From Alcanivorax sp. REN37 (lineage in GTDB: Bacteria > Pseudomonadota > Gammaproteobacteria > Pseudomonadales > Alcanivoracaceae): a DNA stretch of 64,000 nucleotides. The position numbers and the translations under genes were made by a program. Positions within the stretch are counted from its first letter, which is position 1. Each line of letters opens with the position of its first letter. Shown here piece by piece: positions 3,901 to 26,197 of the stretch. A model generated the notes under the pieces. That model was not told the DNA's origin and did no database searches. It saw only the letters and a list, made by a program, of their open reading frames with translations. Where the stretch lies: assembly GCF_041102775.1 (NCBI RefSeq), contig NZ_JBGCUO010000001.1, forward strand, positions 1,798,001 through 1,862,000. Reading direction: 5' to 3'.

Positions 3901-5684
3901 TATTGGTGCAGCCAGCGCTGACCGGCTTCGGTGAGACCTGCCGGCGACACCGACAGCACCGCCAGCGACGCCTCACCAGGCTGCAGCAGCACTTCGAAGC
4001 ACATCAATTCATCACGGCGGAATGCGTGCACCTGCACCCGGTCACCGGGCTGGTAAACGCTGAGCATGTCATCCAACCGGCGGGCATCCACTCGCAATCC
4101 ATCCAGCGCCACCAGCACATCCCCGGCGGACAACCCGGCCGCCATGGCCGCGCCTTGGTCAAACGCCACCGCAATGCGGGCGCCCTGCACCTCGTCGGCC
4201 ACCCGCACCCCAAGACTGACCGCAGCGGCCGCCGCCGGCTTGCCGCCCAGATCCCCGTGACCGGCCGGCGCGCGCCACTCAACTTGCACGCCGCACTGGC
4301 TGAGCAGAGTTTCCAGCGGCAATGAGTCGGTGCCGTACAAGGCCGGTTGGAAAAAGTCGTCCAGCGTTTCGCCAGCGACTTCGGCCACCAGCGCCTGGAT
4401 GCCCTGCTCCGGCACGCCGATGCCGGTTTGGCCGTGGCGCTGCCACAGCAGCCGCATGACATCATCCAACGACCGCTCGCCGCCGCTGCGTTGGCGCAAG
4501 GTTAGGTCCAACGCCAGTGCCACCAATGCGCCCTTGGCGTAATAGCTCACCACCGCATTGCTGGCGTTTTCATCGGCTTTGTAGAACTTGGTCCAGGCAT
4601 CGAAGCTGGACTCCGCCACGCTTTGCCGACGCTGGCCGCTGCCACGTTCGACCCGCGACAGAGTTTGTCCGACCAGCTCCAGATAGCTGTCGACGCTGAT
4701 CAGGCCGGTACGCACCAGCGTCAGGTCGTCGTAATAACTGGTAATGCCTTCGAACGCCCACAGCTGCTCGGTGTAGTTTTCTTCGCGCAGGTTGTAGGGG
4801 GTGAATGCCTCCGGCTTGATGCGTTTGACGTTCCAGGTATGGAAGTACTCGTGGCTGCACAAGCCGAGATAGCTGCGATAGGCATCGCGCACGCGCGTAC
4901 CGTCGCTGGCGCGCGGCAAGTCATTGCGGCTGCACATCAGGCTGGTGGAGTTGCGGTGTTCCAGACCGCCGTAACCGTCACCGGTCACCAGCGTCATGAA
5001 CAGATAATCGTCCATCGGCGCCGGCTCACCGAACAGCCGAATCTGGTATTCGCAGATCCGTTTCAGGTCATCGCACAGGCGCGGCAGATCAGCATGGTGA
5101 CGGCCGCTGAGCACCACCCGATGCGGCACCCCGCAGGCGTCAAAACGGGCTTCGTCGAAGCGGCCCATCTCCACTGGATGGTCTAGCAGCGCATCGTAGT
5201 TGTCGGCCTCGAAACTACCGAAACCATCTTCGGCGCCGCTGATGCGGCGTAGCCCGGTAGCCAAGCGCCAATCGGCGTACTGTTCTCCGGCTGGCGCTTC
5301 GATGGTGATGCGACATGGCTGGTCTTCCAGTCCGTGCGGCGCCAGAAACATGCAGGGGCCGTTGAAGTAGCCGTGGGTGGTATCCAAGTGCGCGCCGCGC
5401 ACCGACAGATCCCAGGCATAAACCTCAATGCGCACCGTCAGCGGCCCGGTGCAGGGCACCAGCGCCCAGGTGTGTTTATCCACCTTGGCCCAATCCAACG
5501 GCTGACCGTTGCTGTGCGCGTCGAAGGCCACCACGTGGCGGGCGAAATCGCGAATCATGTAGCTGCCGGGAATCCACGCCGGCAATGACAGGTGCTGCCC
5601 TTCCGGCATCGGCTGCGCCAGCGTCAGGGTCACCTCGAACAGGTGGGCTTCGGGGCGCAACGGGCGGATGCGGTAGTCAATCAC
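3900..5684 (-). CDS. M61 family peptidase with C-terminal PDZ domain (glycyl aminopeptidase-like)
   Basis: Predicted zinc metallopeptidase of 594 residues. The zinc motif HEYFH is at about residues 278-282, preceded by the family's GGLEHRNST segment near 240. The N-terminal beta domain precedes the catalytic domain, and a PDZ domain occupies roughly residues 450-560. M61 enzymes of this layout cleave N-terminal Gly or Ala. I chose GTG at 5684 rather than the longer frame to 5777, because a GGAG lies 8 bases upstream of it and M61 proteins usually begin close to the motif that follows (IDYRIRP). No signal peptide is visible. It is the first gene of a two-gene unit with hrpA. Confidence 0.88.
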   Translation of the reverse strand: MIDYRIRPLRPEAHLFEVTLTLAQPMPEGQHLSLPAWIPGSYMIRDFARHVVAFDAHSNGQPLDWAKVDKHTWALVPCTGPLTVRIEVYAWDLSVRGAHLDTTHGYFNGPCMFLAPHGLEDQPCRITIEAPAGEQYADWRLATGLRRISGAEDGFGSFEADNYDALLDHPVEMGRFDEARFDACGVPHRVVLSGRHHADLPRLCDDLKRICEYQIRLFGEPAPMDDYLFMTLVTGDGYGGLEHRNSTSLMCSRNDLPRASDGTRVRDAYRSYLGLCSHEYFHTWNVKRIKPEAFTPYNLREENYTEQLWAFEGITSYYDDLTLVRTGLISVDSYLELVGQTLSRVERGSGQRRQSVAESSFDAWTKFYKADENASNAVVSYYAKGALVALALDLTLRQRSGGERSLDDVMRLLWQRHGQTGIGVPEQGIQALVAEVAGETLDDFFQPALYGTDSLPLETLLSQCGVQVEWRAPAGHGDLGGKPAAAAAVSLGVRVADEVQGARIAVAFDQGAAMAAGLSAGDVLVALDGLRVDARRLDDMLSVYQPGDRVQVHAFRRDELMCFEVLLQPGEASLAVLSVSPAGLTEAGQRWLHQ

Positions 5685-5805
5685 GGGACAGTCTCCGGTA
5701 CTGGCAGGAGCGGCGATTATAGCGCTGCGCGGCCACCTTGACCCCCTGTCACAAATCGCGCACTTTGTGGCCTTCATCCCCGCCCCCGTTCAGGAGCTTG
5801 CTGTC

Positions 5806-6768
5806 ATGACGACGTCGACGACGCCGCCCGCTGTCCCCTTCTTCATCGACGCCCCCGGCGGCCATCGTGTCTGCGTGCGCTTGTGGACCAGCAACGGCGC
5901 AGCGCGCGGTATCGTGCACTGGTGTCACGGCATGGCCGAGCATGGCGGCCGTTATGAAGCGCTGGCCGCAGCGCTGAACAGTGCCGGCTGGCACCTGTGT
6001 GTCCATGACCATCGCGGCCACGGCGGCTCGATCAGTGACAGCGCGCCGCTGGGACATTTCGGTGACCGTGAAGGCTGGGATGCAGTGCTCAGCGACGTGC
6101 AGCGGGTACGCGATCACCTGGCGCCGCGCTTCCCCGGCCTGCCCTATGTGCTCGGTGGCCACAGCATGGGCAGCTTTGTGGCGCTCGCCTATGCCGAACG
6201 CTGCGGCCACGACCGCGCCCCGCAGGCGCTGGTGCTGTGCGGCAGCAACCACGACACCGCGCTGCGCTACCGGTTGGCACTGCTGCCGATCAGCTGGGCC
6301 CGCTGGCGTGCCGGCGCGCGCGGCAGCAGCCCTCTGATCAGCAAACTGACTTTCGATACTTGGGCGCGCAGCATTCACCCGCGCCGCACCGAATTCGATT
6401 GGCTCAGCACCGACCCCGCGACCGTGGATGCCTATCTGGCCGACCCGCTGTGCGGCTTCGATTGCAGCACCCAGCTGTGGCATGACCTGCTCAGCGCGCT
6501 GGTGACGGTGCACAGCCCGGCCGGGCTAGCGCGGTTGCCGTCATCACTGCCGATCTGGTTGATGGGGGGCCGTGGCGATCCCATGAGCCGCCATGGCAAA
6601 GGTATGGTCGCCCTGGCTCGCCACTTGCGCCGCGCCGGTGCCGAACAGGTGACCCTGACTCAATACGACGGCCGCCACGAAATATTGAATGACCACTGCC
6701 AGCAGGAAGCCCGTGGCGACCTGCTGCAGTGGTTGGGCAAAGTGCCCAATTCCACCACCGAGCGCTGA
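5806..6768 (+). CDS. Alpha/beta hydrolase, monoacylglycerol lipase/lysophospholipase-like
   Basis: Serine hydrolase of 320 residues in the Hydrolase_4 (serine aminopeptidase S33) group. The HGMAEHGGRY segment (41-50) is typical of monoacylglycerol lipases. The nucleophile elbow GHSMG is at 118-122 (Ser120), with likely triad partners Asp258 (GGRGDPM) and His291 (DGRHE). The start at 5806 has CAGGAG nine bases upstream; the frame is open back to 5767, but that stretch lacks a ribosome site. It is transcribed divergently from the M61-hrpA unit, with 121 bp between the start codons, and convergent with the kinase at 6883. The probable role is hydrolysis of monoacylglycerols or lysolipids; the substrate cannot be told from sequence. 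Confidence 0.85.
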   Translation: MTTSTTPPAVPFFIDAPGGHRVCVRLWTSNGAARGIVHWCHGMAEHGGRYEALAAALNSAGWHLCVHDHRGHGGSISDSAPLGHFGDREGWDAVLSDVQRVRDHLAPRFPGLPYVLGGHSMGSFVALAYAERCGHDRAPQALVLCGSNHDTALRYRLALLPISWARWRAGARGSSPLISKLTFDTWARSIHPRRTEFDWLSTDPATVDAYLADPLCGFDCSTQLWHDLLSALVTVHSPAGLARLPSSLPIWLMGGRGDPMSRHGKGMVALARHLRRAGAEQVTLTQYDGRHEILNDHCQQEARGDLLQWLGKVPNSTTER

Positions 6769-6882: not shown

Positions 6883-9627
6883 TCACGATTGCGCCCGCAG
6901 CGCGTCCGCCAACAACCGCGCCAATTGCGGGATCGACAGCGGCCGCGCCAGCAGCGCAGTCATGCTCGGGTGTGGCATTCCGTTGTGGTGGCGCTCCTGG
7001 AGCAACGCAGTGACACCATAGATGGGTTGCTGGAAGCCCTGCTGGCGCAACTGTTGGGCCAGCGTATAGCCGTCCATTTCCGGCATGTTGATGTCGGTGA
7101 GCACCACGTCCAACTGATGGCGCGCCGCCAGCGCCAACGCTTGGGCGCCGCTGTCGGCGATCAGCGCTTGGCAACCGAGCTGCGCCAATTGCTCACGCAG
7201 TACTTGGCGGTTGAGCGGGTTGTCATCCACCACCAGCACCCGCGCCGGAACCTGCGGCAACTCCGCCGGCAGGCTGGGTGCCGGCAGGCTCCACGGTCGC
7301 TCCAGGGCCTGGCGCACGCCATCAAGATCGTAGGCGCTGCAATAACGCAGCCAGGATGACGCTGGCTGCGATGGCCACTGCCCGAGTGGGCGCATCACTA
7401 CCTGGCGGCCGGACCACACTGGGGTGCGCGCGGCCGGCGGCCACGCCTGCAACAGGACCGCCCCGGCCGCATCCGGATCGATGCCCACATCCGGGTGGTA
7501 CGGTGATGCACGCAGCCCCCAACGCTGCAACCAGCTACACAGGTTCACCACCATTTCCTGTGCCTGGCCGCTGACAAACACCCGCCCCCAGCGCGGCCGC
7601 GGTGGCGAAGCGCTGGCTTGGCAAACCAAGCTGATCTCCAGCGTGATGCTGGTGCCCAGCCCAAGCTCGCTGGTCACCGACAGCTGCGCATCCATCAGCG
7701 CTGCCAGCCGTTTGCAGATGAACAGACCCAGGCCGCTGCCGCTGTACGCCGCCATGGCGCCGCTACTGTCATCGCCGTCATCGCGGCTATAACGCACGAA
7801 CAAGCGATCGCGCAGCGCCGGCGACATACCACGGCCAGTATCCGCCAGTTGGAATTGCAGCCGCACCTGCTCGCCCGCATCTGCCACGGCAGTCAGTCGC
7901 AGCACCACCTGCCCGGACTCGGTGAACTTGATCGCGTTATTCATCACGTTATTGAGGATCTGACGCAGCCGCAGTTCGTCGCCCAGCACGGCATCCGGGA
8001 CCTCTGCGTCGACCAGGCTGTACAACCGCAGCCCCTTCGACAGCGCCAGATCGGAGTAGCTGGCCACCACCGCTTCCACCAGATGGCGTGGCGAGAACGA
8101 CTGTGTCTTGAGCACATCCTCACCGGCTTCCATACGGCACAGATCGAGGGTTTGGTTGATGGTGCGCAGCAAGAACGTGGAGGTATTTTCCAGTGTGCGT
8201 AATTGCTGCTGCTGGGCCTGATTGAGCGAGGTGGTGCCGAGCAGCTCAAGTGTGGCCATCAGCCCAAATAGCGGCGTGCGGATCTCGTGGCTCATCACCG
8301 CCACGAACTCTGCCATGGCAGCACTGGCGGCATCGGCGCTGCGCTTGGCATCGCGCAACGATGCCTCCACCGCTTTCATGGCGGAAATGTCATGTGCCGC
8401 ACACAGCACGGTGTCGATGCCGCGATAGCGTAGCGGCACCAACTCCAAGTGCACCGCGCTGCCATCCGCCAGTTCGCGCTCGAACTCGCCGCCGGCGCTG
8501 TCCAGCGCTTGCTGGAGCCAGTGCCCATCGTCGTGTGCCAGCCAGCGCTCCGCCTGCGGGTTGCTGAGCAGCACACTGCCGTCATCACGGCGCAGCAAGC
8601 ACAGCCCCACTGGCGAGGATTCAATAATGGTGCGCGTGAAACGCTGGCTTTCCTGCAGCGCTGCCTGCTGCTGTAGCGCCGGCCGGATAATGCGCCCCCG
8701 CAGTACTACCAGCCCCACGATCACCAGCGCACATAGCGCCAGCACCGTGGCCAGCACCGGCGTTACCGGCAATGCGCCCAACGCCAACAAATCGCCGATG
8801 CGCACGTAATAAATCACCCGCCAGCCGCCTTCACCGATGCATTTGTTGAGCGCCAGGTAACGCGGCCACAGGCCCTGCCACACCACGCGGAAATCATCCC
8901 CGTGCACGCCTTCCATACGTCCACTGAGGTCCTCGGTTTCGGCAAGAAAGTCACCATTTTTGAGAATCGCCCGGCGCAGCGGGTTTACCAGCAGGTAGTT
9001 GGGCGAGTATGCCTGCGGCTGGTGCAACGCCTGCCGCAGCGCTGCGCTGCTCACTTCCATACCCAGCCAGCCGGCACCGCTGTCCGCGGCCGCCAGGGGC
9101 GTGTAAAGCCACAACCGGTGCTGCGGATCGTTGGGAGCGCTGAGCCAAAGGATCACTGGCAGGCCGTCCGCCTGCCGGGGCGACGCGACCTGTTCCAAGA
9201 TGCTCACCACCCACTCACCCAGCGGCGCCGGCAATGGCGCGCCGTCGCCATCCAAGTAGTGACTGGCGCCGGTGCCAGCAGCGGTGTGCAGCGGACGCAG
9301 GCCCAGAGAGGAGAGGTAATCCTGCTCCGGTTCGCTCAATGACAAGTGGTCGATATTGCTGAGTCCGCCGGCTTCGGCGGACAGCTTGGCAGCCACCCAG
9401 CGCAGCACCACTTCCCGGCGATCAAAGTAAAGTTGGGTATCGAACGCTGCGGCGTTCATGCCACGCCGATAATCAGACACCACGCTGTTGGCGGCGCTGT
9501 AGAAGTACAGCGCGCCGCCGATCAGGATGCTGACCAACACCGCCGCTGCTGCCGCCACCAGGAAGGCGAGTGACAGCTGCGGCACGCGTGGAGTCTGCAA
9601 TGTGGTAGGTGCCATTGGGGAGCTCAT
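6883..9627 (-). CDS. Hybrid sensor histidine kinase (HK-REC, no Hpt)
   Basis: Inner-membrane hybrid kinase of 914 residues. TM1 is at about 18-44, a periplasmic sensor region at about 45-285, and TM2 at about 286-309. A PAS-like domain (about 325-420) precedes the HisKA domain with phospho-acceptor His447 (SHEIRTP). The ATPase domain shows NNVMNNAIKF (559-568), DTGRG (596-600) and a GSGLGL box. A divergent segment (about 680-785) sits where RcsC has its ABL domain. The C-terminal receiver has DD at 801-802 and acceptor Asp845, but the usual conserved Lys is Arg895. No Hpt follows, so phosphotransfer probably needs the Hpt of the kinase at 10361. It is the last gene of a three-gene unit; the start lacks a clear ribosome site. 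Confidence 0.9.
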   Translation of the reverse strand: MSSPMAPTTLQTPRVPQLSLAFLVAAAAAVLVSILIGGALYFYSAANSVVSDYRRGMNAAAFDTQLYFDRREVVLRWVAAKLSAEAGGLSNIDHLSLSEPEQDYLSSLGLRPLHTAAGTGASHYLDGDGAPLPAPLGEWVVSILEQVASPRQADGLPVILWLSAPNDPQHRLWLYTPLAAADSGAGWLGMEVSSAALRQALHQPQAYSPNYLLVNPLRRAILKNGDFLAETEDLSGRMEGVHGDDFRVVWQGLWPRYLALNKCIGEGGWRVIYYVRIGDLLALGALPVTPVLATVLALCALVIVGLVVLRGRIIRPALQQQAALQESQRFTRTIIESSPVGLCLLRRDDGSVLLSNPQAERWLAHDDGHWLQQALDSAGGEFERELADGSAVHLELVPLRYRGIDTVLCAAHDISAMKAVEASLRDAKRSADAASAAMAEFVAVMSHEIRTPLFGLMATLELLGTTSLNQAQQQQLRTLENTSTFLLRTINQTLDLCRMEAGEDVLKTQSFSPRHLVEAVVASYSDLALSKGLRLYSLVDAEVPDAVLGDELRLRQILNNVMNNAIKFTESGQVVLRLTAVADAGEQVRLQFQLADTGRGMSPALRDRLFVRYSRDDGDDSSGAMAAYSGSGLGLFICKRLAALMDAQLSVTSELGLGTSITLEISLVCQASASPPRPRWGRVFVSGQAQEMVVNLCSWLQRWGLRASPYHPDVGIDPDAAGAVLLQAWPPAARTPVWSGRQVVMRPLGQWPSQPASSWLRYCSAYDLDGVRQALERPWSLPAPSLPAELPQVPARVLVVDDNPLNRQVLREQLAQLGCQALIADSGAQALALAARHQLDVVLTDINMPEMDGYTLAQQLRQQGFQQPIYGVTALLQERHHNGMPHPSMTALLARPLSIPQLARLLADALRAQS

Positions 9628-9688: not shown

Positions 9689-10324
9689 TCAGGAAAACAG
9701 CTCGCGGCGCAGGCAAAATGAGATCAGCTCTTGGTCAGTGTCCAGGTTCAGTTTGCGCATCGCCGAACGCTTCTGATTGCTCACCGTCTTGATGCTGCGG
9801 TGCAGTTCACCGGCCACCTGCTTGAGCGACTGGCCGCCGACGAACAGCCGCAGCACTTCCATTTCCCGTGGCGATAGCGTGGTCACTGGGTCTTCGCGAT
9901 GACTGGCGCGTGGCGCTTGCTGCAAGCTTGGGTGGGTATAAGTGTGGCCGAGGCTGATGCGCTGCAACGCGGTGGGCAATGCATTCATGTTGTCGGACTT
10001 GAGCACCACGCCGGCGACGCCGGCCTGGTAGAGGGATTCGAGGATCATCGGGTTCGACACCATGGTCACCACCAGCACCTTGGTGTCGGGGAAATGGCGG
10101 ATCAGGTAATCGATGAACTTGAGGCCATCACCGTACTGCTCATCACCGGGCATGGAAAAATCGGTGATGGCGATGTCTGGCTGCTGTGCCTGCACCAGCG
10201 CCACCAGCTCTGACGGGGTGGTGGCGGTGCCGACCACATCAAATACGAAGTCGCGGTCGAACATGTCACTGAGCCCGGCCAACACCAATGGATGATCATC
10301 GGCAAATACGATTTTCTTCTTCAT
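9689..10324 (-). CDS. Response regulator, RcsB/BvgA-like (NarL family)
   Basis: DNA-binding response regulator of 211 residues. The receiver has ADDHP at 8-12, acceptor Asp55 in ITDFSMPGD, and Lys109. The LuxR-type helix-turn-helix near the C-terminus includes NQKRSAMRKL. The SMPGD...YGDG segment and the SIKTVSNQK recognition region are strikingly like E. coli RcsB, whose acceptor is Asp56 and Lys is 109. ATG at 10324 is chosen because GAGGA lies about 6 bases upstream; ten more in-frame codons exist but have no ribosome site. It sits between two hybrid kinases (gaps of 36 and 61 bp), so it is their likely output. Its target genes cannot be seen here. Confidence 0.9.
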   Translation of the reverse strand: MKKKIVFADDHPLVLAGLSDMFDRDFVFDVVGTATTPSELVALVQAQQPDIAITDFSMPGDEQYGDGLKFIDYLIRHFPDTKVLVVTMVSNPMILESLYQAGVAGVVLKSDNMNALPTALQRISLGHTYTHPSLQQAPRASHREDPVTTLSPREMEVLRLFVGGQSLKQVAGELHRSIKTVSNQKRSAMRKLNLDTDQELISFCLRRELFS

Positions 10325-10360
10325 CCCGGTTCCTCTTCCCTGTTCCGTCGGCACTCGTTG

Positions 10361-13300
10361 TTATTGGGGCAGTCCGGTGTGGACCACGTCATTGATCAGG
10401 GCCACCAGTGCCTGCAGTGCAGTCCAATCCGGCGTGCCATGATCTTCAAAGCTCTGGCGCACCTGCTCCACCTCGGCGGCCAGACGGCTCTGCCCCACCG
10501 CCAGCAAGCCACCATGGATTCGGTGCAGCCGCTGCTGGGCGGTGTCGCTATCCTGTTGCGCCGCGGCGTCAGCCAATACCCCGGCGTCGGCCAGCATGCA
10601 ATCGCGGAATAACGTGCGGTTCTTGTCCGCAATGCGGACCAGCTCAGCCAAGGCGGCCGCACGCACTTCGGCGTCGGCGCCGCCGTCGTGCGGCAATGGC
10701 GCCGCCGCCGGCGCGATGTCAGGCCGCTCGGTTGCGGCCGGCGCCTCGGGCACCACGCGCTGCAAGCAGCGACGCAGCGTGTGCAGGTCAATCGGTTTCA
10801 CCAACCAAGCATCCATACCCGCCGCCGCGCAGCGGCGGTGCTCATCACGCATGGCATTGGCGGTCACACCGATGATCGGCAGCTCGGCACCACGCTCACG
10901 CAGTGCTTGGGTCAGTCCGTAGCCATTCAGGTGCGGCATGTTGACGTCAGTGAGCACCACATCGAACCGCTCTGGCGCCCACTGGCGCAGTGCCTCGCGA
11001 CCGTCATCCACCACCACTACCCGGCAACCGAGCTGCTGCAGCTGGTCACGCAGCGTGGCCTGGTTGATCGGATTGTCTTCCGCTACCAGCACCCGCAGGC
11101 CCAGCTCGGCGGCGGGCGTCAGCACCACCGATGTGGTTTCGGCCCGCTGCAGCCGCAGTAATCCTTCTGCCAACTCCTCGGCGCCATAGCCCGGCAGCAC
11201 ATCGACACCGTCGCCGACGTCGTGCCACAGCGGCCCCGCCTGCACCACCCGGCCGGCACCCGCTGGCGGCGCATTGCCGCTGCCCAGCACCTCAACAAAG
11301 AACTCCGCCGCGCATGGTGTTTCGGTGTCGGTAGCGGCCAGCGCCGTGGCGTCGGCCCCCCACTGGCGCAGCCATTGACAGACATTGCGCGTCAATTCGG
11401 CGTGCGGACTGCGCAGCACTAGACTGAGCCCGGCCAGCGCTGGCACCGGCGCCGGCGAGCAGTCCCCCGCTGCCAGGGTCAGCGCCAGGGTGAAACTGCT
11501 GCCCAACCCCAGCTCGCTGGTGACCTGGATCTCGCCGCCCATCAGCTGCGCCAAGCTGTGGCAAATGCTGAGCCCTAGGCCGGTGCCGGAATGCGGTGTG
11601 TCGCCTTGGTCGGCCTGGAAAAACGGCACGAACAGCTGCGCTTGATCAGCGCTGGAAATGCCGCTGCCGCTATCAGCCACTTGGAAGCGCAGCGCCCAGC
11701 GGCCGTCGGCGGTCGGCTCGCAATACAGCCGCGCAATGATTTGCCCGGAGCCGGTAAATTTGAGCGCGTTGCTGAGCAGATTGTTGAGCACTTGGCGGAT
11801 GCGCCCTGCATCGCCCAACAACCATTCCGGCACCGCCGGGTCGATGCAAGCAAACAGCAGCAGCCCTTTGCGTGCCGCCGCCGCCGCGTATTGGTCAGCA
11901 CAGCCCTGCAGCAACTGCCGAGCATTGAACGCTTCTTCGTGCAGTGCCATCTGCCCGGCTTCGATTTTGGTGAAATCGAGCACATCGCTGATCTGCTGCA
12001 TCAACTGCGCCGAGGCGTGCTCCAGACGCCGCAAATGATGGCGTTCGCCCTCGCCCAACGGCGCCATCGCCAGCAGTTCCAGGGTGCCCATGATGCCGTA
12101 CAGCGGCGTGCGCACCTCATGACTGACTGCCGCCAAGAAACGGGTCTTGGCAACATTGGCACTGTCCGCCTCCTGCCGCGCCCGCTCCAGCTCCTGCTCG
12201 TACAGCACCCGCGAGCTGATATCGACAAAAGTGCAGAGCACCACCGGCTGCTGTTGATAGCGGGTGGGCGCATAGACCACCTGCACATAGCGCTCACCAA
12301 GCTGCAACGGTTCCGACTTGCCGGGCCCGTTCGCGCCGAGAATTGCCGCCGGCAGCACACCCGGCGCCAGCAACTCGCCCGGCGACAATGGCTGCTGCCC
12401 CAGCCATTGCTGGGCCAGCGCGTTGCAAAACACCAAGCGCCCTTCGCCACGGGTCACCACGCACAGCCCCACCGGCGCGGTATCCAGCAGCGTGCGATTG
12501 AAGGCTTCACTTTCCACCAACTCTTGGTGAGCTAGCCGCGCCGGTTCCAACACCCGGCGCCGATGCCAACGCAGATACAGCGCCGCCGCCCCGCTCACCA
12601 CCACCAGCAGCAGCAATGCCAGCAACGGTAACCGCGGATTAGCATGCAAGAAGGTGCCATAACTAATGCGATAGACGCCGCGCCAACCCCCGTCGTGATC
12701 CTCCAGCGCCAGCACGATGCCGTCCCACCCCAATGTGAGTGCGCCCCGGGTGGACGGTCGCGCGCCGTGCCCGATAACAGTGGTGCCCTCTGCGGTCTGC
12801 AACCACAACTGGTCGTACAGGGGGGTTTCTGACACGTTCTGGAACAGGCTGGTGCGCGCCAGGCTGAACGTCGACACCGCGTACAACGGCGCTGCGTCGC
12901 CACGCTGCCCGGCCAGAGGCACGATGCCGGCCACCGCATCAGGCAGGGCCGCCAGCGGCAGCCAGCGCACCGCGTCCCCCGGCGCGGTGTGCAGCTGCTG
13001 CTGCAGCTCCGTCACCACTGCGTCCAGCACCGACGGCGTGTACAGCGCATCACGGTTGCGCCAGTCGAATCCGGGCACCAGCACCACCTGCGGCGTGCGG
13101 CCATCCAACAGCAACGTGGTGACGCCGGGGTAATAAGAGCGCGACCAATGGCTGAGGTACAACGCCGACACCGCCTCGCCCCAGGCTGCCAGGCCCGCCG
13201 CGCTGCCCGTGCAGGCGCCCGGTTCTACACACAGCAGCGCATAGGGCGCGTCATCGCTGGCCGGCTCACGCATCGGGCTGTCGCCACGCTGGGCCGGCGG

Positions 13301-13540
13301 CGCCCACGACGGCTCGCTGCTGCGTTGCTGCAAGCTGGCCAAGTAGTTGTTCTGGGAGTTCAGGTAGGTAGTGAGGGCAAAAAAATCGAGGCCAATTTTG
13401 TCCTCAGTCTGTTCGAGCAGTCGGGCGCCGCCGAGAAACAGCACCAGAGCCAACGCCAGCAGCAACGGCACTACCGCGAACGCCACGCCGTGCAGCCACT
13501 TCGAGGCCTGCAGGATGTTGTGAAACGGCTGGGAATACAT
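10361..13540 (-). CDS. Unorthodox sensor histidine kinase (HK-REC-Hpt)
   Basis: Membrane sensor kinase of 1059 residues. TM1 is about 17-38, followed by a large periplasmic sensor (about 40-300) and TM2 about 303-323. A PAS-like domain (345-445) leads to HisKA with His474 (SHEVRTP), then the ATPase domain with LNNLLSNALKF (585-595), DSGSG (623-627) and GTGLGL (652-657). A divergent RcsC-ABL-like segment lies at 700-800. The receiver has Asp865 and Lys915. The C-terminal Hpt domain carries His1006 in LHRIHGG, where the usual Lys of HxxKG is His. The open frame runs to 13879, but the start is placed at 13540 because TM1 follows directly. It is the first gene of the phosphorelay unit and divergent from two tiny ORFs. 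Confidence 0.9.
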   Translation of the reverse strand: MYSQPFHNILQASKWLHGVAFAVVPLLLALALVLFLGGARLLEQTEDKIGLDFFALTTYLNSQNNYLASLQQRSSEPSWAPPAQRGDSPMREPASDDAPYALLCVEPGACTGSAAGLAAWGEAVSALYLSHWSRSYYPGVTTLLLDGRTPQVVLVPGFDWRNRDALYTPSVLDAVVTELQQQLHTAPGDAVRWLPLAALPDAVAGIVPLAGQRGDAAPLYAVSTFSLARTSLFQNVSETPLYDQLWLQTAEGTTVIGHGARPSTRGALTLGWDGIVLALEDHDGGWRGVYRISYGTFLHANPRLPLLALLLLVVVSGAAALYLRWHRRRVLEPARLAHQELVESEAFNRTLLDTAPVGLCVVTRGEGRLVFCNALAQQWLGQQPLSPGELLAPGVLPAAILGANGPGKSEPLQLGERYVQVVYAPTRYQQQPVVLCTFVDISSRVLYEQELERARQEADSANVAKTRFLAAVSHEVRTPLYGIMGTLELLAMAPLGEGERHHLRRLEHASAQLMQQISDVLDFTKIEAGQMALHEEAFNARQLLQGCADQYAAAAARKGLLLFACIDPAVPEWLLGDAGRIRQVLNNLLSNALKFTGSGQIIARLYCEPTADGRWALRFQVADSGSGISSADQAQLFVPFFQADQGDTPHSGTGLGLSICHSLAQLMGGEIQVTSELGLGSSFTLALTLAAGDCSPAPVPALAGLSLVLRSPHAELTRNVCQWLRQWGADATALAATDTETPCAAEFFVEVLGSGNAPPAGAGRVVQAGPLWHDVGDGVDVLPGYGAEELAEGLLRLQRAETTSVVLTPAAELGLRVLVAEDNPINQATLRDQLQQLGCRVVVVDDGREALRQWAPERFDVVLTDVNMPHLNGYGLTQALRERGAELPIIGVTANAMRDEHRRCAAAGMDAWLVKPIDLHTLRRCLQRVVPEAPAATERPDIAPAAAPLPHDGGADAEVRAAALAELVRIADKNRTLFRDCMLADAGVLADAAAQQDSDTAQQRLHRIHGGLLAVGQSRLAAEVEQVRQSFEDHGTPDWTALQALVALINDVVHTGLPQ

Positions 13541-13805
13541 GGGGAGTCCGGGTTCCTGCGCGGGAATGGAAAGACCGTGTCTGCACGCATAGTAACCAAC
13601 CCGAGCGCCTAACAACATGCGTTGCGTCAAGCGCTCTCTGGCCATGCACCGGAGGTGACGGCAGTGCCTTTGAGAGTTGTCCCAATCTGCCCAGCGCCAC
13701 CAGCGCCGATACTGGGTCGCGCGACCAGGCACGGCCAATCCGGTTAGCGGTCGCGCGCCGCGGTTTCGGGGGGTACCGCACACCATGCAAAACAGGACCG
13801 CTTTG

Positions 13806-13979
13806 ATGGACGCCGCGCGTCGGCAAGAACGGTGGTTATGGCAGACGCTGGCAACGTTGGTGCTGCTGCTGTGGATCACACCGCAGCATGGGTTGCCGGA
13901 GCGCGCCGATTACTTACCCACAGCGGGCAACGATCTGGCCAACCAGATGGGCCGATATGGATTGGAGGCACTGCCATGA
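13806..13979 (+). CDS. Hypothetical small membrane or secreted peptide, 57 aa
   Basis: Unrecognised small ORF. A positive N-terminus (AARRQER) is followed by one hydrophobic segment (about residues 11-25) and a polar 30-residue tail rich in Gly, Asn and Asp. AGGA lies 8 bases upstream of this ATG; another in-frame ATG at 13785 would add seven residues. Its TGA overlaps the ATG of the next tiny ORF (ATGA), the arrangement of translationally coupled bacterial genes. It is divergent from the phosphorelay operon. Against it: it is short, I recognise no homologue, and random ORFs are common in GC-rich DNA. Confidence 0.4.
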   Translation: MDAARRQERWLWQTLATLVLLLWITPQHGLPERADYLPTAGNDLANQMGRYGLEALP

Positions 13980-14092
13980 ATGGACGTTGGACGCTCTGGC
14001 TATTAGTGCTGCTGCTGGGGCTGTGCCCGGTGTGGGTGGAGGCTGTCAGCGCACAGCGGCCGCCGTCGCAGAGCGCGTCGCCGCGCGGCTGA
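13976..14092 (+). CDS. Hypothetical 38-aa peptide with signal-peptide-like N-terminus
   Basis: Very short ORF preceded by GGAGG at 13964-13968, seven bases before the ATG, which is the best ribosome site in this stretch. Residues 1-26 look like a Sec signal peptide: N-terminal Arg, a Leu-rich core, and a possible AxA-type cleavage after VSA, which would release a peptide of about 12 residues starting QRPPSQ. The ATG overlaps the stop of the preceding 57-aa ORF. Function is unknown. It could be a secreted peptide linked to the neighbouring sensor kinases, but nothing in the sequence proves expression. Confidence 0.38.
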   Translation: MNGRWTLWLLVLLLGLCPVWVEAVSAQRPPSQSASPRG

Positions 14093-14104
14093 CGCCGTTA
14101 ACAA

Positions 14105-14140
14105 CACCGCCCCGGCAGGCGAAGCCATACCGGGGCGGTG
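14105..14140. terminator. Bidirectional hairpin between small ORF and gcdH
   Basis: Perfect 11-bp inverted repeat (CACCGCCCCGG at 14105-14115 and its complement at 14130-14140) with a 14-base loop. It lies between the 3' ends of the convergent 38-aa ORF and gcdH. On the minus strand it is followed by TTGTTAA, which is modestly T-rich. Its place between the two 3' ends gives mild support to the small ORFs being transcribed. Confidence 0.6.
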
Positions 14141-14161
14141 ACCGCGTCTTTCAATGGTCAA

Positions 14162-15331
14162 TCAGAACGCGGCGAGACCAGTCTGCGCACGGCCGAGGAT
14201 CAGCGCGTGTACATCATGGGTGCCTTCGTAGGTGTTAACCGCTTCCAAGTTCATCACATGGCGGATCACATGGTATTCGTCGCTGATGCCGTTGCCGCCG
14301 TGCATGTCGCGGGCTTGGCGAGCAATGTCGAGCGCCTTGCCGCAGTTGTTGCGCTTCAGCAGTGACACCATCTCCGGCGACCAGTCGCCGCTGTCCATCA
14401 AGCGGCCCAGTTGCAGGCAGCTGTGCAGCCCGAGAGTGATTTCGGTCTGCATGTCGGCCAGCTTCTTCTGCACCAATTGGGTGGCCGCCAGCGGCCGACC
14501 GAATTGCTTACGGTCGAGCGTGTACTGACGCGCCGCGTGCCAGCAGAACTCCGCCGCGCCGAGCGCGCCCCAAGCAATACCGTAACGGGCTTTGTTAAGG
14601 CAGGAGAAGGGGCCTTTGAGGCCGTCCACTGCCAGCCGGTTGGCGTCTGGTACGAACACGTTGTCGAGATGGATCTGACCGGTGATCGAAGCACGCAGTG
14701 AGAACTTGCCTTCAATGGTGGGGGTGCTGAAGCCTTCCGCGCCGCGCTCCACCACAAAACCGGTGATGACGCCATCGAGCTTGGCCCACACCACTGCTAC
14801 ATCAGCGATCGGGGCGTTGGTGATCCAGGTCTTAGCGCCGCTGAGGCGATAACCGCCGTCCACTTTCTCGGCGCGAGTGACCATGCTGCCCGGATCGGAG
14901 CCGTGATCCGGCTCAGTCAGACCAAAGCAACCGACGTACTCGCCGCTGGCCAGTTTTGGTAGCAAGCGCTGTTTCAGTTCTTCGCTGCCAAAGCTCTCGA
15001 TCGGGAACATCACCAACGACGACTGCACGCTCATGGCCGAGCGGTAGCCGGAATCGACGCGCTCCACTTCCCGCGCCACCAGCCCGTAGCAGACGTGGTT
15101 CACACCGGCACCGCCGTATTCCACCGCCACAGTGGCCCCCAGCAGGCCTTGCTCGCCCATCTCGTTCATGATCTCGCGATCGAACTGCTCGTGACGGTTG
15201 GCCTGCAATACCCGTGTCATCAGCCGGCTCTGGCAGTAGTCGTGGGCGGCATCGCGCACCAGACGCTCATCTTCGGTCAGCGCGCGGTCCAGCCGCAGGG
15301 GGTCATCCCAAACAAAAGGGGTCATGCTCAT
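14162..15331 (-). CDS. gcdH: Glutaryl-CoA dehydrogenase
   Basis: FAD-dependent enzyme of 389 residues that oxidises and decarboxylates glutaryl-CoA to crotonyl-CoA and CO2, feeding electrons to ETF. It is told from other acyl-CoA dehydrogenases by the GCDH signatures [12 protein letters not shown] (with the substrate-carboxylate Arg) and [15 protein letters not shown] near the C-terminus, with catalytic Glu369. The family [12 protein letters not shown] flavin-binding segment is present. Its ATG overlaps the TGA of the upstream thiolase (ATGA), so the pair is coupled. It is the natural end-point for lysine, tryptophan, odd-chain dicarboxylate or pimeloyl-CoA degradation, and the PimC/D/F-like genes at 20-25 kb make the last two attractive. 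Confidence 0.95.
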
Positions 15332-17902: not shown

Positions 17903-19333
17903 TTGAATGCTTCCACACTGGCCCGGCATAGCCGCCGGGCGCTGGATTTTTCGCTGCCGGCCGTGATGGTCGGCACCTATCTTTTCGTGATTGCCGGCAG
18001 CCCTGCCGGCGCTTGGCTGGCGCGCCCCGCCTTGCTCGCTTACCTCGCCGTGCAGTGGCCACGGCTGCCGCGCATTGCCCGCATCCTGCTGATCATTTCT
18101 GCCTGCCTGGCGCTGGGCGTACTCGGCTTCCATGACGACGGCGTGGCACTGAGCCTGCGCGCCCTCGACAGCGCCTGTTTCCTTGCCACCTTTGTGACCT
18201 CGTTGAGCATGTTGCGGGTGGCCGCCCAGCATTCACGGCTGGTGCGTGAGGCCGGTGCTGCGCTGATTCAGCAAAAACCCACCTGGCGCTATCCCATCCT
18301 GTCGCTGGGTACCGCGCTGTTCGGCATCATCATCAACGTCGGCGTGCTGGGGTTATTCGGCGCCATGGCGCAGCGCAGCAACACGCTCAAGGCCGCCCAC
18401 GGCCACGTGGAAATCCAGCAAGCCCGCGAGCGACGCATGATGATGGCGATCTTACGTGGCTTTGCGCTGGCGCCGGTGGTGTCGCCGCTGGGCGTGACCA
18501 TGGCGGTGGTGCTGGCGTCGATGCCGTACCTGCGCTGGGCCGATCTGGCGCCCGCAGCGATTCCAGTGGGCATGCTGTTCTTCTTGGTCGGCTGGCTGCT
18601 GGACTATCTGCAGCGACCACGCCAATTGGCAGTGTTGATGCCCACCGACAAGCCGTCCGCCTCCCTGGCACCGCTGGGGCGTTTTACCCTGCTGGCGGGA
18701 CTGGTCACCGCATCGGTATTCCTGATCGGAGCGCTGTTTGATCTGCGCTTGCCCGTGGCGGTACTGGTGGCCTGTCCACTGTCTGCTTGGGCATGGCTGG
18801 CGATGCAGCGGCGGCGACTTGGCGGTGGCATTGGCTTTGGACGCGCCAGCGGCACACTGGTGCGCCACAGCCGGCTGATTTTCGGCGCTAACCGCAATGA
18901 AGTGGCCATGCTCGGCGGCTCTGCCTTTGCCGGGGTGGTGATCACCGCGCTGATCGACCAGCAGGCGCTGGCGCAATGGCTATTGGCCTCTGGTCTGCAC
19001 GGGGTGTTGGCCGCGGTGGTAGCGATGTTCTTGGTGCTGCTACTGGCGCAGTTTGGTATCAATCCGTTGGTGTCGGTGACACTGGCGGCGTCGCTGTTCC
19101 CGGACACCCGCGTGATTGGATTGGAGCCAGTGGTGCTGGCCTGTGCGTTGATGAGCGCGTGGACGTTGGCGGTGATCAGCTCCCCCTTCACCGCATCGCT
19201 GACCATTCTCAGCGACATGATCAAGCGCTCGCCCTACGAGGTCGCGTGGCGCTGGAACGGCGTGTTCTTTGTGCTGATGCTGCCGCTGGTGACGCTGTGG
19301 CTGTACGGACTGCAGTACTGGCTCACCCGCTGA
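17903..19333 (+). CDS. Polytopic membrane protein, probable transporter of unknown family
   Basis: Very hydrophobic 476-residue protein with roughly ten to twelve predicted transmembrane helices and a central hydrophilic stretch (about 150-170). I do not recognise the family with confidence. The alternating helices and the FALAPVVSPLG and SSPFTAS re-entrant-like segments loosely recall ion-transporter superfamily permeases. The only in-frame start near the first helix is TTG at 17903, with AGG about 8 bases upstream. It follows the acyl-CoA dehydrogenase by 4 bp, which suggests it may carry the substrate of that pathway. A strong terminator follows immediately. Confidence 0.75.
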   Translation: MNASTLARHSRRALDFSLPAVMVGTYLFVIAGSPAGAWLARPALLAYLAVQWPRLPRIARILLIISACLALGVLGFHDDGVALSLRALDSACFLATFVTSLSMLRVAAQHSRLVREAGAALIQQKPTWRYPILSLGTALFGIIINVGVLGLFGAMAQRSNTLKAAHGHVEIQQARERRMMMAILRGFALAPVVSPLGVTMAVVLASMPYLRWADLAPAAIPVGMLFFLVGWLLDYLQRPRQLAVLMPTDKPSASLAPLGRFTLLAGLVTASVFLIGALFDLRLPVAVLVACPLSAWAWLAMQRRRLGGGIGFGRASGTLVRHSRLIFGANRNEVAMLGGSAFAGVVITALIDQQALAQWLLASGLHGVLAAVVAMFLVLLLAQFGINPLVSVTLAASLFPDTRVIGLEPVVLACALMSAWTLAVISSPFTASLTILSDMIKRSPYEVAWRWNGVFFVLMLPLVTLWLYGLQYWLTR

Positions 19334-25012: not shown

Positions 25013-26197
25013 TCACTGCTCCGGCAGTGCCTCGCCGTCGAGGATCTGAGCGCGGGTCAGTGCAAACACCTCGCCATCCTTCACGTAAGCAACGCGCGGA
25101 TCGGTTTGCAGACCACCGTCGTCGTCAATGTGGCTGACGCCGTAGGGGTTGAACGCCGGCGGCAGGCTCACCAGCGCTTTTTGCATGGCGGCACGGATGG
25201 CGCGCGGATCGGTCACAGAACCGGCTTCCTTCATTGCCTGCACCGTCAGGTGCACGGAGAAGTAGTGGTAGGAAGACTCGGAGGTGGCATTGCTGTTGTA
25301 GGTGGCCTTGTACAGATCGATGAAGCGATGAGAATCTTCGCTGTCGTACAGCTCCAGCGGCGTTACGCCCACTGAACCTTCCAGCGTACCGATACCACCG
25401 GCCACCGTGGCCACGTCATTGAGCTTGGCTTGGTCCATCAGAATGAAGCCGCCTTTAAAGCCCAACTCACGAGCCTGGCGCACGACCAAACCGGTGGGCT
25501 CGGAGGCACCGCCGATGAACAGCACATCCGGCTTAGCCGCCAGTGCGCGGCTCACGCCGGTGTAGAAATCGGCGGACTTGTTGTAGTCCATCGGGTTGTT
25601 GGCCACCACGCTGCCGCCCCGCTCTACCCAGGTCTTCTCAAACGCGGCGCCCCACATCTTGGCGTAGTCATGGGTCGCGTTGGCGATGGCGATCTTCGGC
25701 CCGAAGCGGTCCATCGCCAATTTGGCGAACGGTTCCAGGTAGGCGGTGAAAGTCGGCGGAATACGCACGGTCAGGCTGTTGCCCTTCTCGGTCACTTGCG
25801 GGATCGAGGTGAAGCCCATGATCAGGAAGTTATCGCGCTCGTTGAACGCCTGCAGTGCGTAGATGCCACCGGAGTGCGGGGTGAAGATCACTGGCGCGCG
25901 CTCACGCTGGGCCAAGCGGCGGGCGTTTACGGCAGCTTGGCCAGGGGTGTACTTGTCATCCAGCGCAACGATATTGACGGTGTAGTTCTTGCCGTCCACT
26001 TCAAAACCGCCGGCATCGTTAATCTGCTTGGCAGCCAGCTGCATGCCTTTGACAGACTGGTCGCCGTACAGCGCCGCGCCGCCGCTCAGCGGACCGGTGA
26101 AACCGATATTCACCTGTGCCGCCTGGGCACCGGTGGCCAACAGCACCGACGCCGCCATGGCAGTCAGGGCGCGCACACATTTTCTACGAATACTCAT
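25013..26197 (-). CDS. ABC transporter periplasmic binding protein, Liv/Urt type
   Basis: Type I periplasmic binding protein of 394 residues for a Liv-type (HAAT) importer. Residues 1 to about 26 form a Sec signal peptide (basic start, hydrophobic core, cleavage after AQA). The mature protein starts with VNIGFTGPLSGGAALYG, typical of branched-chain amino-acid and related binding proteins. ATG at 26197 has GGAG six bases upstream and is preferred to the one four codons earlier. It is the last gene of livH-M-G-F-SBP. Given the surrounding acyl-CoA genes the ligand may be a carboxylic acid rather than an amino acid, as for related binding proteins in Rhodopseudomonas, but this cannot be read from sequence. 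Confidence 0.9.
   Translation of the reverse strand: MSIRRKCVRALTAMAASVLLATGAQAAQVNIGFTGPLSGGAALYGDQSVKGMQLAAKQINDAGGFEVDGKNYTVNIVALDDKYTPGQAAVNARRLAQRERAPVIFTPHSGGIYALQAFNERDNFLIMGFTSIPQVTEKGNSLTVRIPPTFTAYLEPFAKLAMDRFGPKIAIANATHDYAKMWGAAFEKTWVERGGSVVANNPMDYNKSADFYTGVSRALAAKPDVLFIGGASEPTGLVVRQARELGFKGGFILMDQAKLNDVATVAGGIGTLEGSVGVTPLELYDSEDSHRFIDLYKATYNSNATSESSYHYFSVHLTVQAMKEAGSVTDPRAIRAAMQKALVSLPPAFNPYGVSHIDDDGGLQTDPRVAYVKDGEVFALTRAQILDGEALPEQ

Follow-up and report, generated by a model that had tools for sequence, protein, structure and literature searches.

ORF1 and ORF2 are two small, overlapping open reading frames in the 620-bp spacer between a phosphorelay kinase operon and gcdH. The pair appears to be restricted to this lineage, and there is about an even chance that it is translated and represents a pair of membrane or exported peptides. 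Chance open reading frames are a close rival to a translated pair. The features of the region are as follows, with positions numbered in the window, i.e. the whole 64-kb stretch of DNA that was analysed.

6883–9627, minus strand: second hybrid kinase, similar to the non-RcsC (PvrS-position) kinase of related loci
9689–10354, minus strand: RcsB-like response regulator (receiver and LuxR-type HTH)
10361–13540, minus strand: hybrid histidine kinase, RcsC-type (HisKA, HATPase, receiver and sub-threshold Hpt), with a predicted, weakly dCache-like periplasmic sensor
13806–13979, plus strand: ORF1, 57 aa, with a basic N-terminus, one hydrophobic stretch and a tail of about 30 aa
13964–13968, plus strand: GGAGG, Shine-Dalgarno-like, at a spacing of 7 to the ORF2 ATG
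13976–14092, plus strand: ORF2, 38 aa, signal-peptide-like, with a short Pro/Ser/Gln tail
14105–14140, no strand assigned: perfect 11-bp, G+C-rich hairpin between the convergent ORF2 and gcdH
14162–15331, minus strand: gcdH-like acyl-CoA dehydrogenase, convergent with ORF2

The stop codon of ORF1 (positions 13977–13979, plus strand) overlaps the start of ORF2 in the tetranucleotide ATGA (13976–13979). Two coupled tiny open reading frames with this overlap, and with GGAGG before the second, had been proposed in a sequence-only reading, and the sequence and its translations bear this out. That reading described ORF1 as a 57 amino acid frame with one hydrophobic stretch, which holds for the ATG at 13806, but its coordinate, 13785, gives a frame of 64 aa. 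The ATG at 13806 has AGGA at a spacing of 8, and a Shine-Dalgarno scan recognised no site for the start at 13785. A distance of 265 bp separates ATG 13806 from the divergent kinase start at 13540, and the end of the convergent gcdH lies 69 bp past the ORF2 stop.

The best 15 residues of ORF1 and ORF2 have a mean Kyte-Doolittle hydrophobicity of 1.73 and 2.53, respectively, and ORF2 resembles a signal peptide by eye; the hydrophobic helix and the signal-peptide-like start that had been assigned to the two frames are in agreement with this. An AlphaFold2 model of ORF1, made from the single sequence without an alignment (mean pLDDT 74.7), has helices at positions 3–27 and 37–55, and the predicted helix covers the hydrophobic stretch.

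If the pair is translated, ORF1 would give a single-pass peptide of the inner membrane, and ORF2, with re-initiation at the ATGA overlap, an exported or membrane peptide with a signal-peptide-like sequence. The transcript of the pair would start at a putative promoter in the divergent spacer and end at the gcdH hairpin, which would serve both directions. A search of positions 13400–14300 found no sigma-70-like promoter, which is a weak test in G+C-rich DNA. The translation, topology and promoter of the pair, and any function, are what we infer from the features described.

According to the close rival, both open reading frames are chance frames in a G+C-rich spacer, the hairpin terminates gcdH, and what remains of the spacer is the promoter region of the kinase operon. 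This is a serious possibility, although we place it short of an even chance. It was assessed with 1500 dinucleotide shuffles of positions 13541–14161, in which either strand was scanned for a pair of at least 38 and at least 30 aa. A coupled pair alone is present in 25% of the shuffles, as expected if the pair is fortuitous, and longer, presumably spurious open reading frames of 86, 100 and 116 aa overlap the same stretch. However, coupling, two Shine-Dalgarno sites and two hydrophobic cores are rare in combination. A coupled pair with a 5-base Shine-Dalgarno sequence on the second open reading frame is found in 0.7% of the 1500 shuffles, a coupled pair with hydrophobic cores in both frames in 0.07%, and all of these (coupling, Shine-Dalgarno sites and both cores) together in 0 of 1500. 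The pair is also the sole coupled pair with hydrophobic cores in both frames (38–150 and 30–150 aa) on either strand of the whole 64-kb window, where the arithmetic from the shuffles gives an expected ~0.0007 × 100 stretches = 0.07 coupled and hydrophobic pairs. The effective significance of these figures is much weaker, since the criteria for the shuffles and the window scan were set after the pair was seen and the whole window had been looked through.

The coding evidence for the pair is mixed. Codon scores were trained on 21 open reading frames of the window that were taken as genes. For whole codons, 3% of native segments score as low as ORF1 and 6.6% of wrong-frame segments score as high; the corresponding values for ORF2 are 2.4% and 12.7%. 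Both scores are thus borderline, in the zone where coding and wrong-frame segments overlap. In a six-frame scan of the spacer with 90-nt windows, the top codon scores track ORF1 and then ORF2, each in its own frame, which argues against chance frames; a minus-strand window at 13691 scores 0.10, equal to the first window inside ORF2. When amino acid content is removed, the synonymous codons of ORF1 look non-coding (1.1% of native 57-codon segments are as low and 20% of wrong-frame segments as high), as a chance frame would, and those of ORF2 are intermediate (11% and 6.5%, respectively). It is therefore the amino acids of ORF1, rather than native synonymous codons, that give it a positive score. 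This codon pattern would be expected equally of a young or foreign gene and of a chance open reading frame.

No convincing homologue of the peptides was found in the genomes searched, and this also is consistent with chance open reading frames. The ORF1 genome samples, which extend from genus to phylum, overlap. Among 94 relatives, nine including the window's own genome show an ORF1 match at E ≤ 0.1, the best of the others (0.006) being read as chance. Five of 369 class genomes, again including its own, have a match at E ≤ 0.01; the four non-self matches (0.003–0.008) sit in frames of 231 to 848 codons and are likewise read as chance. In 398 phylum genomes the single match at E ≤ 0.001 is the genome itself, and a search of 15 genomes carrying related loci, run without a positive control, gave 0 of 15 at E ≤ 0.01. 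ORF2 yields matches at E ≤ 1 in 54 of the 94 relatives, with a best non-self value of 0.02, which is read as chance. Neither frame has a match of weight in Pfam, NCBIfam or PHROGs (one NCBIfam match has 12 bits vs a cut-off of 130). There was no match for ORF1 in the PDB or in plasmids and phages, for ORF2 in plasmids, for the spacer DNA in plasmids, or for Rfam families at positions 13300–14400. Two pattern-selected partial matches to ORF1 in viral contigs, of 22 and 16 codons, are regarded as chance.

At the nucleotide level, a comparison of the spacer with 46 family genomes gave short matches in eight non-self genomes (best 36 nt, E = 1.8e-4). Eight of the 12 matches fall inside ORF2, and the matches are regarded as chance or composition. 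The gcdH flanks of 29 relatives show no counterpart of the spacer, the best match to ORF1 or ORF2 having E = 0.12, and nothing in the spacer hints at another gene or a decayed neighbour. Homologues of short hydrophobic peptides can, however, escape detection through divergence. Within the genomes sampled, the sequence comparisons point to a pair peculiar to this lineage.

The hairpin that had been noticed after the pair is present: its arms, at 14105–14115 and 14130–14140, form a perfect stem with 100% complementarity, and positions 14086–14160 have a folding energy of −37.4 kcal/mol (z = −3.8). It has the properties of an intrinsic terminator, i.e. a G+C-rich stem, a T run after gcdH (5 T of 8 on the gcdH strand) and presence in relatives. 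A terminator, defined as a stem of 7 bp or more with a minimum of 5 T of 8, lies no further than 90 nt from gcdH in 11 of 29 gcdH relatives, which do not have the open reading frames, compared with 3.3% of 400 control windows. The 29 relatives are not an independent sample, as L035 and L037 share a hairpin, and the control windows may lie in coding sequence. The core GCCCCGG/CCGGGGC is common to the window and five of these 11 relatives (L033, L039, L040, L041 and L043), although they lack the open reading frames. Since relatives keep the terminator without the open reading frames, the simplest view is that the hairpin terminates gcdH. It may act in both directions, but it lends the peptides no support.

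Domain matches confirm the two divergent hybrid kinases of the sequence-only reading; large periplasmic sensors had been attributed to both, and such a sensor is predicted in the first kinase. The start of this kinase at 13540 agrees by eye with the N-termini of its homologues in loci L081 and L086. Its receiver domain scores 92.8 bits and its Hpt domain 21.0 bits vs a Pfam cut-off of 24.6; the best NCBIfam match is RcsC, at 425.8 bits, below the cut-off of 920. The regulator has RcsB as its best NCBIfam match (149 bits, below the equivalog cut-off of 235) and is 42–48% identical to four regulators of the order. An RcsB-like regulator thus lies beside the kinases, as in RcsC-RcsB-PvrS-type phosphorelays. 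The predicted sensor domain (mean pLDDT 81, from an alignment of 21 sequences) matches models of chemoreceptors first and then the dCache-type CqsR and PctA, with TM-scores ≤0.5; its likeness to small-molecule dCache domains is a lead only.

The sensor domain of the first kinase was detected in 0 of 93 other relatives at E ≤ 0.001, its own genome being alone of 94, and a scan of genome contigs found no relative of it. The regulator is present at E ≤ 1e-35 in seven of 390 genomes of the order, including its own, and the other six all belong to one family. Lateral acquisition of the operon is proposed because of this patchy distribution, and the operon was probably acquired in this way. Judged from sequence similarity, it is a rare relative of the RcsC-RcsB-PvrS fimbrial phosphorelay.

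In P. aeruginosa PA14, the cupD fimbriae are under the PvrSR/RcsCB regulators, with RcsB controlling them, and pvrS is located upstream of pvrR, as rcsC is of rcsB (PMC3842833). The window resembles that system in having two hybrid kinases, RcsC-like and PvrS-like by similarity, and an RcsB-like regulator. Unlike it, the window has the order kinase-regulator-kinase, and no fimbrial gene or EAL protein (PvrR) was found among the neighbouring proteins scanned, which include a helicase, an M61 peptidase, gcdH and fatty-acid enzymes. A small peptide is not mentioned in the passages of PMC3842833 consulted. The two usher genes of the window's genome are located elsewhere (L161 and L162). At positions 7315–9606 of L161, near an usher gene, there is a 763-aa open reading frame with 26% identity over 381 residues to the window kinase; it is possibly a kinase tied to that fimbria.

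The proximity of the pair to this operon raises the possibility that the peptides modulate the adjacent kinases the way MgrB or SafA modulates PhoQ. ORF1 would dock on a kinase transmembrane helix and the RcsB-like regulator would drive expression. By analogy with small membrane proteins, and even random-sequence peptides, that act on sensor kinases (PMC8404706, PMC7790251, PMC5706723), and given the divergent position beside two hybrid kinases and the helix predicted over the hydrophobic stretch of ORF1, such a role can be envisaged, but we consider it unlikely. The weak resemblance of the predicted sensor to small-molecule dCache domains speaks against it, as does the spacer, where a pattern scan found no RcsAB-box-like site (one match with three mismatches lies at 26185). 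The absence of the pair from the 64 other related loci, only eight of which have a comparable spacer, also counts against it, as described next.

Related loci were taken from a regulator alignment as the best 80 of 380 relatives. Achromobacter, Alcaligenes, Pseudomonas, Stenotrophomonas and others are among the named organisms of these best 80, in which kinases are beside the regulator in many, not all, loci; an alignable RcsC-type sensor is present in 57 of the 80 and an usher match within the fetched stretch in 33. The closest of the best 80 is a Corticimicrobacter populi locus (L081), which has the same kinase-regulator-kinase order and an identity to the window of 45% in the first kinase (residues 6–1031) and 57% in the regulator. 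The Corticimicrobacter locus has a second RcsB-like regulator (36% identity) at positions 5578–6282, upstream of the kinase operon and in the same orientation. A distantly related kinase (23–24% identity) occurs near fimbrial genes on two Providencia plasmids.

The scan for the pair covered 87 loci; 23 without an alignable sensor were left out and 65, including the window, were counted, with the kinase start projected in nine that align only from beyond residue 45. A divergent pair with Shine-Dalgarno sites and hydrophobic cores is present only in the window among the 65 loci with an alignable sensor, and one locus (L124) shows a single 38-aa open reading frame at the threshold. No equivalent pair was seen by eye in L081 and L086. 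A comparable spacer, i.e. at least 250 nt upstream without a long co-directional open reading frame, is present in only eight of the 64 other loci, none of which has a candidate pair; the family test is therefore weak. The peptides as a standing part of this kinase family are not supported, and the suggestion that the pair acts as signals, sensor accessories or regulatory peptides gains no positive support from the 64 loci (eight with comparable spacers).

The small-protein systems known from other bacteria offer a partial parallel. MgrB (47 aa) and SafA are small membrane modulators of PhoQ (PMC8404706, PMC5706723), and ORF1 and ORF2 share with them a small size and a single hydrophobic stretch, and with safA, which is lineage-restricted, their limited distribution. 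MgrB and SafA are single peptides, in contrast to the coupled pair in the window. A sensor kinase can also be activated by peptides obtained through selection from random sequence (PMC7790251). A newly arisen coupled peptide pair, recruited beside a laterally acquired fimbrial phosphorelay and tuning its kinases, would be a natural counterpart of such selections, although this is very improbable. Intergenic small-ORF microproteins of bacteria form families under purifying selection (PMC11188072). The two open reading frames are like these in being intergenic, 15–70 codons long, hydrophobic and potentially transmembrane, but the searches yielded no second sequence of the window pair.

A further reading, in which the pair is the decayed remainder of a gene that was lost on entry of the kinase operon into the site, would be in keeping with the rarity of the kinase sensor and of the regulator in relatives, but it has the smallest probability of all, as the flank frames of the 29 gcdH relatives lend it no support (3 of 205 match the spacer at E ≤ 0.01, about the chance level, the best with E = 0.001 over 21 residues) and Pfam, NCBIfam and PHROGs have no match of weight.

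If translated, the pair would add a lineage-restricted small-protein unit to those that annotation often overlooks, at a telling location. Should it act on the kinases, it would illustrate how a phosphorelay acquired horizontally comes by a local peptide modulator. Otherwise, it is a useful reminder that coupled hydrophobic open reading frames in G+C-rich spacers need conservation or translation data.

Directly after an acyl-CoA dehydrogenase gene, at positions 17903–19333 (plus strand), there is an open reading frame with a TTG start that encodes a hydrophobic protein of 476 aa. It has no Pfam or NCBIfam match and, judged by eye, is probably a multi-pass membrane protein.
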